Virus record (IMG/VR): IMGVR_UViG_3300028800_000184
Location: 1-40,034 of that record
Length of the DNA stretch: 40,034 nt
From: a virus
Direction: 5' to 3' (one strand)
Under the pieces are notes generated by a model. That model was not told the DNA's origin. It ran no database searches and saw only the letters and a list, made by a program, of their open reading frames with translations. Each line of letters opens with the position of its first letter. The stretch's first letter is position 1. Both the position numbers and the translations under genes were made by a program. This document shows, in pieces, positions 2,013-35,310 of this stretch.

Positions 2013-2516
2013 TTAAAACTCCTCTCCTGTTTGGTTGCAGTCGAAGACGAATATGCCTCGTCGACGCCACATCCTGACGACTTTCGGCCTGTCATCGAAT
2101 ACGAATTCGATCTGTTTTCCTTCAGAAATAGCTTCATCAAGCCATCTTTCTTTAAGGACATCGTCAGGTGTATTGTCGCCAATAGGACGCATTTTTAGAC
2201 GTCTATCCCAGTATTGATAATCTTCTAACGTTCCATATAAATTCATGAGCCATTTTAAGGTTTTCTCGCGGACAGATTCGCAACGCCCTGACCATATGCG
2301 CACATCATGATTAAATGGTTCACCTTGAGTTAAATGAATAAATGCATCTGCGACAGGTTGAATAACATTATCCTTATCGCAAGCCTCAAAAAACCCTTTC
2401 CAATCAGGCTTAAATCTCTTTCCCTGAATAATTCCTTCTAAAGATCTGCGAGCATCAATATAATGCCTGCGATGATCGCAGTCGGCCAATGTGCCGTCTA
2501 AATCAAATATTATCAT
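2013..2516 (-). CDS. HAD-family phosphatase, PNKP-phosphatase-like, 167 aa
   Basis: The protein opens with HAD motif I, FDLDGTLAD, whose first Asp is the nucleophile and second Asp the acid/base. A later IWSGR is consistent with motif II, and FVFDDRPKVVRMWRRRG with motif IV, the Mg2+-binding acidic pair. Overall it resembles the phosphatase domain of phage polynucleotide kinase/phosphatase, without a kinase domain. Such enzymes remove 3' phosphates from nucleic acid ends or dephosphorylate nucleotides; the substrate here is inferred. I chose the ATG at 2516, four bases after the methyltransferase stop, because motif I begins there. An upstream extension to 2591 would overlap the methyltransferase. 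Confidence 0.75.
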   Translation of the reverse strand: MIIFDLDGTLADCDHRRHYIDARRSLEGIIQGKRFKPDWKGFFEACDKDNVIQPVADAFIHLTQGEPFNHDVRIWSGRCESVREKTLKWLMNLYGTLEDYQYWDRRLKMRPIGDNTPDDVLKERWLDEAISEGKQIEFVFDDRPKVVRMWRRRGIFVFDCNQTGEEF

Positions 2517-2520
2517 GATA

Positions 2521-3555
2521 TTAATACTCAAAGTTAAATTGTTCTGGGAGTAGTTGGGTATTTTTAATACGTCTTTTAGCGATCTCTGCATATTCGTCTT
2601 CTTTTTCTATGCCTATTGCACGGATTCTTAGCTGCTTTGCAGCGACTAACGTGCTTTCGCTGCCTGCAAATGGGTCAAGCAATATAGGGTCGCCAGGAGG
2701 CGCAAGAAGCTTGATTATGTAGCGCATGAGGGCTAATGGTTTGACTGTGGGATGGATGCAATGTTTTTCAAGCCCTGCATTACGTTCGGATGATGAGGCT
2801 TTTGCACAATAAAAGAAGCGGGATGCGCCACCGGAATTTGCATGAATGTCATAACCGCCTATAGGATTATATTTATTATGAGTTAAACATTTTTGCATTT
2901 TTGAAAAATATGAGGGCTTGTGTGCTCCACTTTTTAAAATTCCCGTCTGCTCATCAAGCAACGCGGCCGCCTCCCTATCCAAAATAAGATTTGCTGGCCA
3001 GCGGCCAAGTGAATTAGATTCAGAGACTCGATCAGATCTCCCTTTTTTATCCATCAGCCCACCAGATGTAATATCGTGACATCGATGAGTCCATTTATCC
3101 TCCATAGGAATTCGCGTTGCGTCTATGTTGATCCCCGCAACATCCCACTTTTCAGCATTCTGTGCATATGTACCATCTAATGGCTTCATTGCTAATATGA
3201 TAGGCTCCCATGCAGGCTTTAAAGCCGTACCATAACCCTCAAGGCCGAACTTATTATGCGATTTAGGAAACCCGCTCCCATATAACCAACAAATGCAGTC
3301 TCTTATTTCCCATCCAGCATCCTCGATAGCGCAAGTAAGCCTATGAAAAGTCCTAGTACCTCCAAAAGCTGCCAACATTGAACCTGGCTTGCATACACGA
3401 AGCATCTCCGACCAAAAACCAACCCCAGGAATGCCATTATCCCATTTTTTACCCATGAACTTTAGGCCATAAGGGGGGTCAGTCACAATGAAATCAATGC
3501 TATTGTCCTGTTGTTCTCGCATCCAATCAAGGCAGTCAGCATTAACTATCATCAT
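2521..3555 (-). CDS. DNA methyltransferase (N4-cytosine/N6-adenine type), 344 aa
   Basis: The catalytic motif DPPYG is at residues about 26-30. The AdoMet-binding motif (DPFAGSES) comes late, near residue 294, followed by GIEKEDEYAEIAKRRI. That order (motif IV before motif I) marks a beta-class amino-methyltransferase. HPTVKP before motif I is also typical. No restriction endonuclease is adjacent, so a role in masking phage DNA from host restriction is the natural inference. The frame has ATGs at 3567, 3555 and 3552. The TGA of the upstream small gene overlaps the later pair, so I favour 3555. Confidence 0.88.
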   Translation of the reverse strand: MMIVNADCLDWMREQQDNSIDFIVTDPPYGLKFMGKKWDNGIPGVGFWSEMLRVCKPGSMLAAFGGTRTFHRLTCAIEDAGWEIRDCICWLYGSGFPKSHNKFGLEGYGTALKPAWEPIILAMKPLDGTYAQNAEKWDVAGINIDATRIPMEDKWTHRCHDITSGGLMDKKGRSDRVSESNSLGRWPANLILDREAAALLDEQTGILKSGAHKPSYFSKMQKCLTHNKYNPIGGYDIHANSGGASRFFYCAKASSSERNAGLEKHCIHPTVKPLALMRYIIKLLAPPGDPILLDPFAGSESTLVAAKQLRIRAIGIEKEDEYAEIAKRRIKNTQLLPEQFNFEY

Positions 3556-5899: not shown

Positions 5900-6111
5900 T
5901 TAACTTCCTCCTTATATTCTTTTTCATGGCAATTTTTGCATTTAGCGGCGATAACAATGCCACTAATGCAAATATTAAAGTCTCTCAAGTCTTTTACTTT
6001 ATAAGCGGGACGAACAAGGGCATTATATATTGCTCTCCTTTTCCCGCAATAATCACACTTGTGCTTTTTTGTGAACAGCTTCTCCCAATATGCCGACTGA
6101 TCAATATCCAT
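5890..6111 (-). CDS. Zinc-ribbon-like protein, 73 aa
   Basis: Two CxxC pairs, CDYCGKRR near residue 19 and CKNCHEKE near the end, are separated by about 40 residues and can form a zinc ribbon. The frame stays open to an ATG at 6168 within the terminase gene. The ATG at 6111 overlaps the last codons of terminase and avoids a long overlap, so I prefer it. Confidence 0.6.
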   Translation of the reverse strand: MDIDQSAYWEKLFTKKHKCDYCGKRRAIYNALVRPAYKVKDLRDFNICISGIVIAAKCKNCHEKEYKEEVKCQ

Positions 6112-7462
6112 AGTATTTATTGATAGCTTTAATGTCGTTGTCAATATTTCCTGAATCTCTTTTTTCAATGGCCTTTAATCCCACTGCTAAATACCTAAAA
6201 GCGTCGGCGGCATGGCTGTGTTCATCATGTAGGGGGGTATTTTTATAGCAACCCAGTCTGTCGTCCCAGAGTTTTTTATAGGCCTCAAGATGCTTAAGGC
6301 CTTCAGCGGTTTTCTCCTTATCGAACATACACCTGGAGAGCATCGCCCTGACCGTTTGTATTCCCTCAAGCTTGTCACACTCTTTGATGTCCAGTATGAT
6401 AATCTTGCCGTCAAGGAGTGGTGCAACGTAGTCAATATATTGCGTCTTAGCTCCAATGTCTCGTTTTCTTGCGTCATGAGGGAAGATATGACGTCCAAAT
6501 CTGTATTTTTGTTTGTTAAGCCAGTCACAATAATGCGCAGCTCCCTCGTCCCAATTTTCGTAATAGTTGATAATGGATATATGTCCGCCACGGCCTACCT
6601 GGAAGCACCAGATTGCACTAAAATCATCGAGACCAATGTCCCAAGCCGTATGCACCACGCTTGAATCGTCGTAGGGAACCCGACACACAGCCCCATTAGC
6701 ACGCAGTTTAGACAGCTGTCGACCGTAATAAAGACCTTCATTCGCACTTTCAAAAGCCTCCTTTGGCGTCGACGGATACTCTTGCTTCATCGCATCGCCG
6801 AGCATTTTATGTTTCATCTCATACCAGCGGCGCTGTTCCTCGTCAATTTTGCGCTGGCGCTCAATTTCAATGCCATCTAAATATTCGTTTGTCTCTTTGC
6901 TGATCACTATTGACTCGCTTGATGCTCTATAGTTGGGGTCGTCGAACCAAGGAAAAAAGAAGAAGCGCATTTGCATGGGTGACAAATCGGTTCCTTGCAA
7001 TGCGAGCGTTTCTGCTGATTTGCTGAACTCATAAAAATATCCTTCTCTTCCTTCGGCTGTAGATTCGATTGCAATAATTTGATCTGCAGAGACGGTGTTA
7101 AGAGATCCTGTAACAATTTCTTTCGCAACATCGGGAGACTTTGCGCAAATTTTTCCAAATTCACTAACAAGCAATCGCTGGTAAGTCCCTGACCTAAAAC
7201 CTGTAGAAACTCGATAGCTCGATCCATTTTCAAAAGCAAGCTCTCCGCTTCGATCGTTTGTAGCGGAGTTAAAAGTTCTTGTCCATTTGGGCATTCTGTC
7301 ATAAGCATATTTAACCTTTTTTTTGAAAATGTCTTCAGCATCTTCTTTTCGATGGGCGATGATACCAGCATGGGTATTTGCATGCCAGAAACAATCATCA
7401 AGAAAACTGATTGAGAAGTATGTAGTCACGCCAAGTTGCCGATTTAGGCTTGTGCCCTCCAC
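6101..7462 (-). CDS. Terminase large subunit (TerL), main C-terminal portion
   Basis: This is the bulk of the DNA-packaging motor. After residues QLGVTTYF (second half of a Walker-A-like motif) come AGIIAHRKEDAEDIF, a Walker-B-like segment RLLVSEFGK, and an IESTAEG segment consistent with the coupling motif. A nuclease domain follows, with AWDIGLDD, HDARKRDIG and DEHSHAADAFRY supplying acidic metal ligands. The first half of the Walker-A motif (LKAR) is at the end of the separate upstream frame 7466-7654. The frame opens with a GTG at 7462 inside the inserted hairpin, so its first eight codons are not expected in functional terminase. Joining CGG at 7484-7486 to CAA at 7436-7438 gives a 502-residue protein, the normal size for a P22-like enzyme. 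Confidence 0.9.
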   Translation of the reverse strand: MEGTSLNRQLGVTTYFSISFLDDCFWHANTHAGIIAHRKEDAEDIFKKKVKYAYDRMPKWTRTFNSATNDRSGELAFENGSSYRVSTGFRSGTYQRLLVSEFGKICAKSPDVAKEIVTGSLNTVSADQIIAIESTAEGREGYFYEFSKSAETLALQGTDLSPMQMRFFFFPWFDDPNYRASSESIVISKETNEYLDGIEIERQRKIDEEQRRWYEMKHKMLGDAMKQEYPSTPKEAFESANEGLYYGRQLSKLRANGAVCRVPYDDSSVVHTAWDIGLDDFSAIWCFQVGRGGHISIINYYENWDEGAAHYCDWLNKQKYRFGRHIFPHDARKRDIGAKTQYIDYVAPLLDGKIIILDIKECDKLEGIQTVRAMLSRCMFDKEKTAEGLKHLEAYKKLWDDRLGCYKNTPLHDEHSHAADAFRYLAVGLKAIEKRDSGNIDNDIKAINKYYGY

Positions 7463-7483
7463 TTTTCAGCAGAGGGCACAAGC
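7439..7483 (-). other. 45-nt hairpin insert in terL, candidate bypassing element
   Basis: Read on the coding strand, terL has CGG (Arg, 7484-7486), then 42 nt, then a second CGG (7439-7441), then CAA-CTT-GGC (Gln-Leu-Gly). The 42 nt contain arms GCTTGTGCCCTC and GAGGGCACAAGC, a perfect 12-bp inverted repeat. It extends to 16 pairs, including one outer G-C and three inner pairs (two of them G-U), closed by a UGAAAA hexaloop. The in-frame UGA lies in that loop. GGAGGG sits in the 3' arm, 13 nt before the second CGG. The host protein motif ARQLGVTT requires only one Arg, so exactly 45 nt is extra. This resembles T4 gene 60 (matched take-off and landing codons, hairpin, stop in the gap). A small mobile hairpin with a 3-bp target duplication, or RNA excision, are alternatives. 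Confidence 0.75.
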
Positions 7484-7654
7484 CCGTGCCTTGAGTACTA
7501 GCATTTGATGCCACTCGCGGTCATAAAGCTCTTTTTGGGTGGCGTTCAGAGTAAATTTGACGGCGTAACCGTCTTTGTCTGTAATGTAATAGAGATTGTT
7601 TAAGCGCCAGAGCTTGTCATTGAGCTCGTCCTGAGTGGGGATGTATTCATTCAC
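7466..7654 (-). CDS. Terminase large subunit, N-terminal portion (57 codons before the insert)
   Basis: Residues 1-57 match the N-terminus of phage terminases of this type (KLWRLNNLYYITDKDGYAVK, then a helix leading to MLVLKAR). After LKAR the frame continues only through ACALC before a UGA; those last five codons are the 5' arm of the hairpin insert. The normal continuation (QLGVTTY) lies 45 nt further on in the same frame. The start is GTG at 7654 with CAGG upstream, since no in-frame ATG exists after the small-subunit stop. Without bypass or splicing this would be a dead fragment lacking the ATPase core. Confidence 0.8.
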   Translation of the reverse strand: MNEYIPTQDELNDKLWRLNNLYYITDKDGYAVKFTLNATQKELYDREWHQMLVLKARACALC

Positions 7655-8369: not shown

Positions 8370-8612
8370 TCAAGGGGAAACTTTAGCGAGGATGCTACTT
8401 TCGTCGATGACGAGGTATTGTTCTTTTTCGTGCTCGATGCCTGCGCCTGAGTATTTGTCGAGGTAAATTATATCGTTTACGTTGACTTTTGTAACTTCGT
8501 CCCCATTGGCGATGACTATGAAGCGGGTCGGCTTTTGCCCGGAGACGATGAGGTTGCCGTGAGTTTCTTCGACGGGTTTGACGAGGATACGTTTTCCGAT
8601 TGGTGTGAGCAT
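8370..8612 (-). CDS. GroES-like co-chaperonin, 80 aa
   Basis: The start LTPIGKRILVKPVEE matches the first strand of GroES (LHDRVIVKR). A Gly-containing loop (THGNLIVSG) sits where the mobile loop that contacts GroEL lies. The tail EHEKEQYLVIDESSILAKV matches the GroES ending (EEVLIMSESDILAIV). It is about 15 residues shorter than bacterial GroES. Phage versions such as T4 gp31 cap host GroEL so that it can fold the capsid protein; that role is inferred here. TAGGAGT precedes the ATG. Confidence 0.8.
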   Translation of the reverse strand: MLTPIGKRILVKPVEETHGNLIVSGQKPTRFIVIANGDEVTKVNVNDIIYLDKYSGAGIEHEKEQYLVIDESSILAKVSP

Positions 8613-20270: not shown

Positions 20271-20687
20271 ATGAAGTTGAAAATTCAGCCCTCGGAATGT
20301 GATTGTGAAAAATGCTCAAGCATGTGTCATTCTCCTTGTTGTGGGACTCCTGAAGATATGGACAAACTTATGGATGCTGGCTATGGAGATAGGCTTATGT
20401 ATGATGATTGGCCTGATGGAGAAACGATGTTAAAACCAGCTTTAAAAGGATATGGAGGCGAAAGAGCGCCATGGGAGGTTTCCAGTTTAATGGGATGCAC
20501 TTTTTGGAAAAAAGGAAAATGTGAACTGCATTCTTTAGGGTTAAAACCATCTTTAGGAAAATTAGCCATACATGATCAACCACAGGAAGAAAAAACTGAA
20601 ATTTGTGAATTTATTGAAGAATCTTGGAAAAAGAAAAAGGCTAAAAAAACTTTAGAAAGATGGAAAAGAGAATATGCAAGTAATTGA
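20271..20687 (+). CDS. YkgJ-like Cys-cluster protein, 138 aa
   Basis: The N-terminus has CDCEKCSSMCHSPCCGTPED, and later come GCTFWKKGKCELHSLGLKPS and a further Cys in EICEF, the pattern of YkgJ-type cysteine-cluster proteins thought to bind zinc or an iron-sulfur cluster. The C-terminal tail is Lys-rich. It precedes rtcB with a 14-base overlap, so the two are probably translated together. Its substrate is unknown. Confidence 0.65.
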   Translation: MKLKIQPSECDCEKCSSMCHSPCCGTPEDMDKLMDAGYGDRLMYDDWPDGETMLKPALKGYGGERAPWEVSSLMGCTFWKKGKCELHSLGLKPSLGKLAIHDQPQEEKTEICEFIEESWKKKKAKKTLERWKREYASN

Positions 20688-21852
20688 TGGAATCCCAGTC
20701 TGGGGTGATCCTCTCCCTGAAGCTGTAGCACAAATGAAGGAGGCAGTGAAATATGATGCGATTTACGGTGCCCTTATGGCCGATCATCACCTTGGCTATT
20801 CTGTTCCTGTCGGAGGTGTTATTGCTTACGAAGGGAAAATTTGCGTTAATGGGGTGGGATTTGATATTGCTTGCGGCAATAAAGCTGTTTTGGTGGACTG
20901 TCCTGCTGACGAACTTAAAAATAACATCTATCGGACGATGAATGAAGTACAAAAACTTATCTCTTTTGGAGTTGGTAGAAAAAATAACGAGAAGGTCGAA
21001 CATAGTTTATTTTACGATGAATTGTGGAACCAAATTCCCATCCTCAGAGATCTTAAGGGTAAAGCATGTGAGCAATTGGGTACCGTTGGTTCAGGGAACC
21101 ACTACGTGGATATCTTTACGGATGAGCTTGATCGCGTTTGGATTGGCGTTCATTTTGGGAGCCGTGGTCTCGGCCATAGCATTGCAACTCACTTCATAAA
21201 AGCAGCAGGGGGAAAAGATGGAATCCACGCAATGCCAGTCATTCTTGATGAAAATTCAGACCTCGGAGCCCAGTATATTAAATGCATGGAACTCGCTGGT
21301 CGATATGCTTACGCTGGCAGAGATTGGGTTTGCGACCGCGTCGCTAAAATACTACGAGCAAACGTGGTACAGTCAATTCACAATCACCATAACTTTGCAT
21401 GGCGAGAAAACCATTTTGGTAAGGATCTCTGGGTCATTCGAAAAGGGGCTACCCCTGCATTTCCTGGCCAAAGAGGCTTTGTTGGGGGTTCTATGGGAGA
21501 TATTTCCGTCATACTTGAGGGAATCGAATCGGCTGATAGCGCAACGACTTTATATTCGACAGTCCATGGAGCAGGACGTTCAATGGGAAGAATACAAGCC
21601 AAAGGAAAAAGATGCCGAAAAACAGGAAAGCAACTTACCGAAGGACTTGTCAAACGAGAAGATCATGATGCCTGGATCAAACATATTGGAGTTGAGTTAC
21701 GAGGGGGGGACCTCGATGAGAGTCCCTTCGCCTATAAAAGAATTGAACAAGTGTTGGAAGCACATTGTGGAACGATAAAAATATTGCATACATTAAAGCC
21801 GATTGGTGTTTGCATGGCAGATGAAAGGGAATACGATCCATGGCGCGATTAG
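20674..21852 (+). CDS. rtcB: RtcB RNA ligase, 392 aa
   Basis: RtcB joins RNA 2',3'-cyclic-phosphate or 3'-phosphate ends to 5'-OH ends with GTP and Mn2+. All hallmark residues are visible: Asp64 and Cys67 in VGFDIACGN, Asn142-His143 in GSGNHYVDI, His160 in VHFGSRGLGH, His238/239 in SIHNHHNFA, RKGATPAFPGQRGFVGGSMG, and the guanylylated His298 in TVHGAGRSMGR. The length fits bacterial RtcB. In phage it could repair tRNAs cut by host defence nucleases. Here it might also join RNA ends around the terL hairpin (speculative). It overlaps both neighbours by 13-14 bases. Confidence 0.95.
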   Translation: MQVIDGIPVWGDPLPEAVAQMKEAVKYDAIYGALMADHHLGYSVPVGGVIAYEGKICVNGVGFDIACGNKAVLVDCPADELKNNIYRTMNEVQKLISFGVGRKNNEKVEHSLFYDELWNQIPILRDLKGKACEQLGTVGSGNHYVDIFTDELDRVWIGVHFGSRGLGHSIATHFIKAAGGKDGIHAMPVILDENSDLGAQYIKCMELAGRYAYAGRDWVCDRVAKILRANVVQSIHNHHNFAWRENHFGKDLWVIRKGATPAFPGQRGFVGGSMGDISVILEGIESADSATTLYSTVHGAGRSMGRIQAKGKRCRKTGKQLTEGLVKREDHDAWIKHIGVELRGGDLDESPFAYKRIEQVLEAHCGTIKILHTLKPIGVCMADEREYDPWRD

Positions 21853-22277
21853 GATTTAATCCCCTGAATACAATACCGAGAGATATTGTAGCAAAAAAAG
21901 TGGTATTTGATGAAGGCGATCATTATGATCCTAAAATCAAATCAAACACCCATTGCTATAGCACGCTACCATTACCATTTTGGAAAACAAAAGACCTTCC
22001 CTTGAAGGTTAGAAACGATCCTCTATTTGAGGATTTGACAGGAGCTACATTTGGTAATTTTACCGTGATGGGATTGCTCAAAGGGTTCAAATATGACAAA
22101 TGGGTTCTTAGATGTTCATGCGGAGCCTATGAAGTTCGAAGGACAAAGACTCTTCGCAAGATAACCGGAAAGATTGATGAAACTCGATGTCAGAGCTGCT
22201 TGGATGGTGAGAGACTGAGGCATCGAGAATATTACAAAAAGCATGGTATTTATCCCTGGCAAAAGAAAAACAAATGA
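21840..22277 (+). CDS. Zinc-ribbon protein of unknown role, 145 aa
   Basis: The core DLTGATFGNFTVMGLLKG, then WVLRCSCGAYEVRRT and RCQSCLDGERLRHREYY matches a zinc-ribbon domain common in phage DNA-binding proteins (LTG-x2-FG-x-LTV, then C-x-C-G and C-x2-C). Residues 1-60 are unique and polar. It overlaps the 3' end of rtcB. A nucleic-acid-binding role is probable, and a function tied to RtcB is conceivable from position alone. Confidence 0.6.
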   Translation: MARLGFNPLNTIPRDIVAKKVVFDEGDHYDPKIKSNTHCYSTLPLPFWKTKDLPLKVRNDPLFEDLTGATFGNFTVMGLLKGFKYDKWVLRCSCGAYEVRRTKTLRKITGKIDETRCQSCLDGERLRHREYYKKHGIYPWQKKNK

Positions 22278-33954: not shown

Positions 33955-34485
33955 TTAAATACCGCTTGAGCGTAAATTTTGAATCCAGAGGTCATTGGTG
34001 ATACACTGCCCTTGGTAGAACGAGCATCCTGCCGTATGTCTTAGCATACATGGGTCGTTGTTATATCCTGGAGGCAGATAGATAAAGCGAGCTTTACCAC
34101 CTGCTTGCCATACAACCTTGTAGGCTTCTTTTGCGGAAACGAAGCAATTAGCAATGTCATTTCCAAGCATAGAAGCATTTGGAGTGACAGACCCTTGCTC
34201 AGAAGCAAAGAAGCGCACGTTATTTGCCCCACCTATCTCAACGCTTAACGTTTGAGAGATGTTTGGATATTGGAATTTCTTGATAAAACCAGTCATGTTA
34301 TACAGAACTGGAATCATCCTAGTGGTTAACATACAACCGTATGCGTCCCCAATTGGTGATGTTCCAAAGCGCAATTCCGCTTCCACGATGTTTGTAATGT
34401 ACTCTCCAGAGTTATTCTGAAGCACAGTAAAGACATCATCTACATCTGAGATTGTCATCTCAGTAGGGATGTCTCCATTAGACCC
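33955..34485 (-). CDS. Major capsid protein (N4-gp56 family), exon 2
   Basis: C-terminal 176 codons of the capsid protein. Features of the N4-gp56 family are evident: GSNGDIPTEMTISDVDDVFT, YITNIVEAELRFGTSPIGDA, NVRFFASEQGSVTPNASMLG, then AYKVVWQAGGKARFIYLPPG and the ending NDLWIQNLRSSGI. An ATG at 34488 opens the frame, but its G is the last base of the intron and no ribosome site precedes it, so this is an exon rather than a separate gene. The exon starts with GGG at 34483-34485, in phase with exon 1. Confidence 0.9.
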   Translation of the reverse strand, partial: GSNGDIPTEMTISDVDDVFTVLQNNSGEYITNIVEAELRFGTSPIGDAYGCMLTTRMIPVLYNMTGFIKKFQYPNISQTLSVEIGGANNVRFFASEQGSVTPNASMLGNDIANCFVSAKEAYKVVWQAGGKARFIYLPPGYNNDPCMLRHTAGCSFYQGQCITNDLWIQNLRSSGI

Positions 34486-34893
34486 CATATTTTCTGTTAC
34501 TTTTATGACCTAAGTGTCGGGTATTTGTCGTACTTTCTACGCTTTGTCTACCGACTTGCGCTGGTCGTCACCAATATGCGCTTCATTCAATTAGGCGGGG
34601 AAACCTCTTCGGATCTCCCTCTCTATGTTTCCATAGAGTTCAGACTATCGCTTCCTCTTTCGAGGTCTTCTCACTTAGTCGTTCAGGCTGATATTGATCA
34701 AAGAAATCATCAATAAATTCTTCTATCCATTGACGTCGTGGTTCCATCCATAAAGGAAAACCGTCTTTGTCTAATGTTTCCAAGTATTTTATCATTTCTT
34801 TTTTCATTACCTTGCCCCTTGTTGTCCGTCTGCTTAAGCAACGAGGAGTTCCAAGTCCATCAGAGAAGATTTAACGTCAGCAGGTTTTTGTTT
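34486..34893 (-). other. Group I intron in the major capsid gene, 408 nt
   Basis: On the coding strand the last exon bases CGTCGGT pair with the internal guide GCTGACG (34875-34881), ending in the required U-G pair (P1). TCTTCTC (near 34862-34868) pairs with GAGAAGA (P3). GACTA (34676-34680) pairs with TAGTC (34643-34647) as P7, in the typical contexts GAACGACTAAG and GATAGTCTGAAC. CCTC-GAAA-GAGG is P8. CTCTATG-GAAA-CATAGAG is P9. ACCT of the guide region can pair with GGGT at the start of exon 2 (P10). The intron ends in G (34486). It has no homing-endonuclease gene, only a 55-codon frame. Confidence 0.9.
34640..34807 (-). CDS. Intron-internal open frame, 55 aa
   Basis: An ATG follows AAGGGGCAAGGTA, a credible ribosome site, and the frame ends with TGA inside the conserved core after P7. 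The product is acidic and aromatic (GFPLWMEPRRQWIEEFIDDF, then FDQYQPERLSEKTSKEEAIV). It has no endonuclease motif (no GIY-YIG, LAGLIDADG or HNH). The last third of the frame coincides with P7, P3 and P8 sequence, so the RNA fold limits it. It could be a small protein or a chance frame in a P5/P6 extension. Confidence 0.35.
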   Translation of the reverse strand: MKKEMIKYLETLDKDGFPLWMEPRRQWIEEFIDDFFDQYQPERLSEKTSKEEAIV

Positions 34894-35310
34894 ACCGACG
34901 CAATTTATAATGCTTGCAGAACTTTCTAAATTGTCCCTCTGGAGGGCATCCTGGGTCTCACGGAGACTCTGTCCAAGTCTAGCCGCGGCGGAATTTAACA
35001 CAGGATCTTCATTAGTGATCGTGACCTGCCTTGTGAGCACTATGTAAGTGGCATAAACGCGGACACGGCAATCCACATCAACGCGATTAAGCTGCTGAGG
35101 TGGTGGGTTGTTTTGGCCATCATCGAGAGGCACTTCAAACAGGTCAAGCCTGTCATAGCGTGACTGACGATCAATAAAGCCTTGATTATCTGGCAGCTCC
35201 ACTGGTGTAGCAAACAACTGGTGGATCAAGTTGTGCTCTGGAGTCGACATTAATTTTGCGTTGTACCGCTGTTGAATTTGCGGTGGCAACGAAGCAATTG
35301 ATACTGACAT
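34894..35310 (-). CDS. Major capsid protein (N4-gp56 family), exon 1
   Basis: N-terminal 139 codons, from MSVSIASLPPQIQQRYNAKL through DRLDLFEVPLDDG to ASIINCVG. The segment TYIVLTRQVTITNEDPVLNS, then AAARLGQSLRETQDALQRDN is typical of this capsid family. Without splicing the frame reads 19 codons into the intron to a stop at 34834. Joined to exon 2 it encodes a 315-residue protein running INCVG-GSNGD across the junction. AAAGGG precedes the ATG. The scaffold-like gene is directly upstream. Confidence 0.9.

Follow-up and report, generated by a model that had tools for sequence, protein, structure and literature searches.

In gene 60 of phage T4, the closest described counterpart of a short stop-containing gap in a phage gene, ribosomes pass over 50 nt between identical take-off and landing codons, with a stem-loop at the take-off site and a stop codon that lies in the gap directly 3′ of the take-off codon (PMC5009743). 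The published marks of bypassing also include a Shine-Dalgarno-like sequence about 6 nt 5′ of the landing codon (PMC5009743). The byps of Magnusiomyces capitatus mitochondria are short blocks in essential genes that are to be absent from the protein; there are 81 copies of them, and an unused codon occupies the A site (PMC5009743). Bypass has further been proposed in the terminase gene of Streptomyces phage Hau3, where the use of a UUA codon is suggested (PMC5009743). On the side of RNA splicing, the relevant systems are the group I introns of phages, marked by a U·G pair in P1, by P10 and by a terminal G, and the engineered spliceozyme, a Tetrahymena group I ribozyme made to excise 100-nt introns in trans (PMC4094466, PMC4509937).

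The window analysed here, a stretch of 40,034 nt from the IMG/VR virus record IMGVR_UViG_3300028800_000184, was compared gene by gene with ten relatives, and two short stop-containing inserts were found in conserved frames: one of 45 nt in the terminase large subunit gene (terL) of the window, and another, 42 nt long, in the gene for the major head protein (PHROG 1357) of relative G003. The terL insert resembles T4 gene 60 in lying in a phage gene between identical codons, with a stem-loop at the first of them and a stop in the gap, but differs from it in that the stop is not at take-off, the Shine-Dalgarno-like sequence is misspaced, there is no special nascent peptide, the reading frame is kept and the insert is private to one genome. 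It also occurs once, as against the 81 byps, and its A-site codon is not unused; the Hau3 arrangement, although in a terminase gene too, is unrelated to it. We judge the inserts of the head protein gene, treated in the last two sections, to matter more than the terL insert.

The 45-nt insert in terL

A 45-nt hairpin with a stop codon interrupts terL in the assembled sequence; the original prediction of such an insert between two CGG codons is borne out by sequence, translation and fold. The gene lies on the minus strand, with a GTG start at 7654 and a stop at 6101. Its N-terminal part (62 aa, 7466–7654) runs to the in-frame TGA and aligns with the N-terminus of the relatives' TerL, and its C-terminal part (6101–7441, 447 codons including the stop) starts at R-QLGVTT, matches PHROG 5989, terminase large subunit (E=1.3e-6), and has tblastn matches to annotated TerL. 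Translation across the insert reads WHQMLVLKAR-ACALC*KVEGTSLNR-QLGVTTYF, so that the insert is placed between LKAR and QLGVTT. It is exactly 45 nt long and flanked by CGG codons at 7486–7484 (putative take-off) and 7441–7439 (putative landing), its borders being 7439–7483 or, equally, 7442–7486, where the sole ambiguity is the 3-nt direct repeat CGG.

The hairpin (7447–7484) has perfect arms of 13 bp in DNA, at 7484–7472 and 7459–7447, and its stem extends via U·G, G·U and C-G to 16 bp; in the folded RNA an extra U-A pair closes a GAAA tetraloop (16–17 bp in total). The 91-nt stretch around the insert folds with −43.0 kcal/mol (z = −6.4, with none of 200 shuffles as stable). These are the longest perfect arms in the 40-kb window, tied with one AT-rich pair than which the terL pair is far GC-richer, and hairpins with such arms occur at a mean of 0.125 per shuffled window. 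The G+C content of the insert is 56%, against 44% for terL. Neither a known RNA family nor a tRNA was found in the window at the insert site. A reading of the hairpin as a terminator was rejected, as no T-run follows it, and so was reassignment of TGA: translation table 11 gives long ORFs, and TGA serves as the stop eight times in the genes counted.

The TGA (7468–7466) is the sixth codon of the insert. The consequences drawn in the original prediction, namely 15 extra residues in the ATP-binding loop on readthrough and a divided ATPase on reinitiation, are judged correct. An ORF of 453 aa does begin at a GTG at 7462, one codon past the TGA, and would allow terL to be made as two polypeptides, by a stop at the TGA and a restart at this GTG. 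Such a break would lie inside the Walker A loop, with any ribosome-binding site buried in the stem, and the P-loop mechanism makes a functional split within this loop implausible. We consider a split enzyme highly improbable.

It had been suggested that close relatives be searched for the same gene without the 45 nt, and this is what they carry. In 13 viral contigs whose TerL is 62–87% identical, LKA-R-Q(L/I)G is read without an insert, and a scan with the N-terminal part matched 44 loci without the 45-nt gap, except for one locus with an inverted segment. When the pattern was counted across all loci retrieved, 69 uninterrupted terL sites were obtained, from loci that overlap and so do not amount to 69 independent genomes, and the insert occurred in the window only, which enters twice under two ids. 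As terL is uninterrupted in every relative inspected, the 45-nt insert is private to the window genome. None of the examined relatives has the same 15 residues, the toleration of which would have spoken against bypass. No second terL copy is present in the window, and a hairpin with the same stem was found neither in the other viral contigs searched nor in the phage and plasmid records searched, while a search of genome contigs returned only unrelated hairpins sharing a 10-nt arm.

With one contig as its source and no independent copy, the insert could have arisen in sequencing or assembly, or could be a minority variant raised to the consensus. Against this, the inserted letters do not repeat any adjacent sequence, and an artefact would therefore need two independent false joins, one on either side of 45 nt of new sequence, between flanks that are exactly conserved. 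We regard an artefact as rather unlikely.

Some other observations were made in the course of these searches. A host or phage repeat as the source of the insert was rejected, as only chance-like hairpins with 10-nt arms were met, bar an unrelated repeat family of Methylobacter. This is a multi-copy hairpin repeat of Methylobacter marinus (L089-L092 and L096) with arms CTTGTGCCCT/AGGGCACAAG, of which only a 10-nt arm is like the terL insert. The locus with an inverted segment (L331, from G019) has 300 bp of terL in reverse, residues 36–135 including the Walker A region, with inverted duplications at the borders; this is either a true inversion or an assembly fold-back. The terL gene is also interrupted near residues 231–242 in G013 (L120, 4305–4925), G029, G039, G040, G041 and G049. 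In G013 it is interrupted by an HNH_3 endonuclease ORF, after which the remainder of terL starts with an ATG.

Bypass, RNA removal or lesion as possible readings of the terL insert

The original prediction held the insert to be a bypassing element, in which ribosomes would quit the first CGG and take up translation again at the second, so that the folded 45 nt are passed over and TerL is made uninterrupted. The part of this claim that stands is the matched codons and the hairpin at take-off: the flanking CGG codons are identical, CGG is used less than any other sense codon here (11 of 10,013), the insert measures 15 codons, the strong stem starts within the take-off codon, and terL minus the insert is exactly the protein sequence pattern of the relatives. 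Bypass has, moreover, already been proposed for a phage terminase, that of Hau3 (PMC5009743). The other marks speak against it. Take-off is followed by GCT, one of the most frequent codons of this phage (274 of 10,013) and neither a stop nor a rare A-site codon, and the TGA lies five codons beyond it and not directly 3′ of take-off. GGAGGG, which had been noted before the second CGG, is indeed present (7460–7455), but is buried in the stem at 13 nt from the landing codon, instead of about 6. No KKYK-like nascent peptide is encoded, the upstream peptide being that of relatives without the insert, and the arrangement does not recur, with a single copy in the genome and none in the family or the searched collections. 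By our own estimate, about one insertion in nine that duplicates a 3-nt target would show a matched in-frame repeat by chance, and an insertion that keeps the frame and has such a repeat calls for no special cause. On this balance we hold bypass to be unlikely.

Removal at the RNA level would have the hairpin cut from the terL mRNA and the ends joined, for example by a phage RtcB together with a polynucleotide 3′-phosphatase, or would make the insert some other type of mini-intron. Both kinds of RNA repair enzyme are encoded in the window, as an RtcB ligase (20674–21852, plus strand) and a PNKP-type 3′-phosphatase (2013–2591, minus strand), and many introns are tolerated in the phage family, as are core-less inserts of this same size in an essential gene. 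RNA repair enzymes such as RtcB and PNKP, however, usually oppose host defences that cut tRNA. Among the eleven genomes compared, RtcB is found elsewhere only in G001, the terL of which has no insert, and RtcB was accordingly rejected as a marker of the insert.

The insert was also examined as a group I mini-intron. In the four possible registers the exon would end in A, C, G or G, with no U before the junction, and guide pairing amounts to 7–9 of 13 positions (shuffle p 0.2–0.9), against 12–13 of 13 for the putative mini-introns of the head protein gene; at least 9 of 13 guide pairs are reached by 39% of random stretches. This reading was rejected, as the insert fails in every register with pairing at chance. 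It shares none of the marks of phage group I introns, neither the U·G of P1 nor P10 nor the terminal G, and since it fails the tests of guide and ends, it is not one of the capsid mini-introns. Having neither a group I guide, a U before the junction nor usable pairing, it is unlikely to be removed from the RNA.

The reading that we favour, at a rough probability of 0.4, is that the insert is private palindromic DNA, a lesion or strain variant for which no rescue has evolved and which breaks terL as assembled. This is the largest single share among the readings, all shares being judgements and none computed. The insertion, bordered by a 3-nt repeat in an otherwise intact terminase gene, would reduce the product of terL as assembled to a 62-residue stub, and we infer that the gene is really broken. 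Several results point this way: the insert occurs in the window genome only, the terL of close relatives being uninterrupted at the same place; the window has no second terL; the same stem was not met in the other viral contigs, phages and plasmids searched; the marks of bypass fail apart from the matched codons and the hairpin; and in none of the four registers does a group I guide pair better than by chance. A lesion sits less well with the expectation that the consensus of an environmental phage is a common, viable form, with the kept reading frame and matched codons, and with the demonstrable tolerance of this phage family for other short inserts in an essential gene. No further frame break or short insert with a stop was found in the conserved genes of the window in comparison with the ten relatives, which argues against general decay; an in-frame stop suspected in the portal gene of one relative was merely its terminal stop. 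That mini-inserts are tolerated in the capsid gene makes tolerance of the terL insert more plausible, without telling how it would come about. If the terL insert is neutralised after all, it would be a rare case of a short, frame-keeping gap skipped or excised inside the active-site loop of an ATPase.

Introns and mini-inserts in the major head protein gene

In the window, the major head protein is encoded on the minus strand in two exons, 34894–35310 (PHROG 1357, start taken from the ORF list) and 33955–34485 (PHROG 1357, E=1e-10), separated at codon 144 by a group I-type intron of 408 nt (34486–34893) that is absent in relatives. The intron has 7 of 7 pairs in P1 and 4 in P10, a U at the end of the 5′ exon and a terminal G; its match to Rfam RF00028 is weak (21.2 bits against a gathering score of 50, E=0.0099), and a head-protein intron of a relative matches with 30.6 bits (E=2.8e-4). 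The head genes of relatives carry larger insertions at codons of about 92, 106, 107, 120, 144, 147, 184, 268, 283, 290 and 305. In most of those with fixable borders the exon ends in U and the insertion in G, and the guide pairs at 6–7 of 7 positions with the 5′ exon and at 2–4 with the 3′ exon. By these sequence features, those insertions are group I introns, and group I-type introns are found at ten or more positions of the family's head protein gene, one of them in the window. In some of the introns the opposite strand encodes a LAGLIDADG endonuclease.

A second, much shorter kind of insert accompanies the intron at codon 106. Among 24 head-gene loci with this intron, 21 have a second insert of 38–59 nt between codons 84 and 85 (L377-L383, L387, L389, L391, L394, L399, L403, L405, L411, L414, L424, L427, L428, L395 and L406). 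Nineteen of these mini-inserts, of 38–48 nt, were scored; two more are of 59 nt with a further intron between, and three loci have none. The scan asked only for the codon-106 junction and is thus unbiased toward the mini-insert, though it knows a single junction sequence, and the true set may be wider. No mini-insert is present in the uninterrupted head genes (0 of 76 full-length loci, some overlapping), and the contrast between 19 of 22 loci with the codon-106 intron and none of 76 gives p of about 2e-17, a value inflated by relatedness. The mini-insert was found only alongside a complete intron 22 codons downstream; in L381, for instance, a mini-insert of 47 nt is followed by a middle exon of 66 nt and an intron of 239 nt.

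Bypass cannot explain these inserts, because most of their lengths break the frame and the take-off codon GAT has no matching landing codon, the inserts ending in G. The joint occurrence of the two inserts could be due to co-conversion during homing, but their pairings could not.

Pairing and probable splicing of the mini-inserts

Like phage group I introns, the mini-inserts have a P1 with U·G, a P10 and a terminal G, the U·G at the 5′ junction and the terminal G being present in 19 of 19 (16 distinct sequences). Unlike these introns, they have no catalytic core of their own (P3–P8), for which 38–59 nt leave no room. A short loop is followed at once by a guide, made up of about 5 letters that pair with the start of the 3′ exon (P10) and then 8 that pair with the end of the 5′ exon (P1). 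In most of them the next 8 letters pair with the exon just before the codon-106 splice site, forming a tether that is weak in L424 and L427. A simple motif search found core motifs in the codon-106 intron of most mini-insert loci.

Silent changes in the exon are mirrored in the mini-insert. The matched forms (exon/mini-insert) are GTGGAT/GTCCAC versus GTCGAT/GTCGAC, TGCCG/CGGCA versus TGTAG/CTACA and TGCA/TGCA, and ATCACTAA/TTAGTGAT versus ATTACTAA/TTAGTAAT, ATCACAAA/TTTGTGAT and TACCAA/TTGGTA. In the 16 distinct sequences 95.5% of the cells of the helices pair, with changes on both sides in six pairs (19 cells); P1 is paired in 98% of cells and P10 in 90%, each with two pairs that show compensatory changes. 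All three helices, the tether included, covary; the covariation score was reached by none of 500 shuffles, and slid versions are 25–54% paired. When mini-inserts are swapped between phages, all three helices become weaker (permutation p at most 1e-4); these permutation values ignore shared ancestry, of which the existence of compensatory changes is independent. The minimum free energy fold of one 403-nt stretch contains 8 of 8 pairs of the mini-insert P1, 10 of 10 of the tether and 7 of 7 of the P1 of the next intron.

From these pairings, the mini-insert is probably a mini-intron that is removed by the ribozyme of the neighbouring intron. In the simplest model, the core of the codon-106 intron would splice the mini-intron first, while the tether, stacked on the P1 of the codon-106 intron, would hold it in place, and the codon-106 intron would then splice itself. 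Splicing of the mini-introns is thus suggested by structure and covariation. The wider proposal, that a core-less mini-intron of 38–59 nt with its own guide is excised by the codon-106 intron core to which a covarying helix ties it, and that it represents the spliceozyme's equivalent in nature and an early stage on the way to several introns sharing a single ribozyme, is one that we hold to be somewhat better than an even bet. As in the engineered system, a group I core would remove a second intron that has no core. The spliceozyme, in contrast, was designed, acts in trans and brings its own guide, whereas the phage mini-intron contains the guide itself and is tethered by a helix to the neighbouring ribozyme. 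If the mini-introns are spliced as their structure suggests, one self-splicing intron removes another that has lost its catalyst, which would be the step by which, as usually imagined, a shared splicing machine arose out of self-splicing introns; among group I ribozymes, such a step is present in the literature searched as a laboratory design only.

Two further genes of the window may be mentioned. An HNH-like ORF with a weak match to PHROG 374 (21840–22277, plus strand) directly follows rtcB, and a gene for a GroES-like co-chaperonin (PHROG 3188) is located at 8370–8612 on the minus strand.
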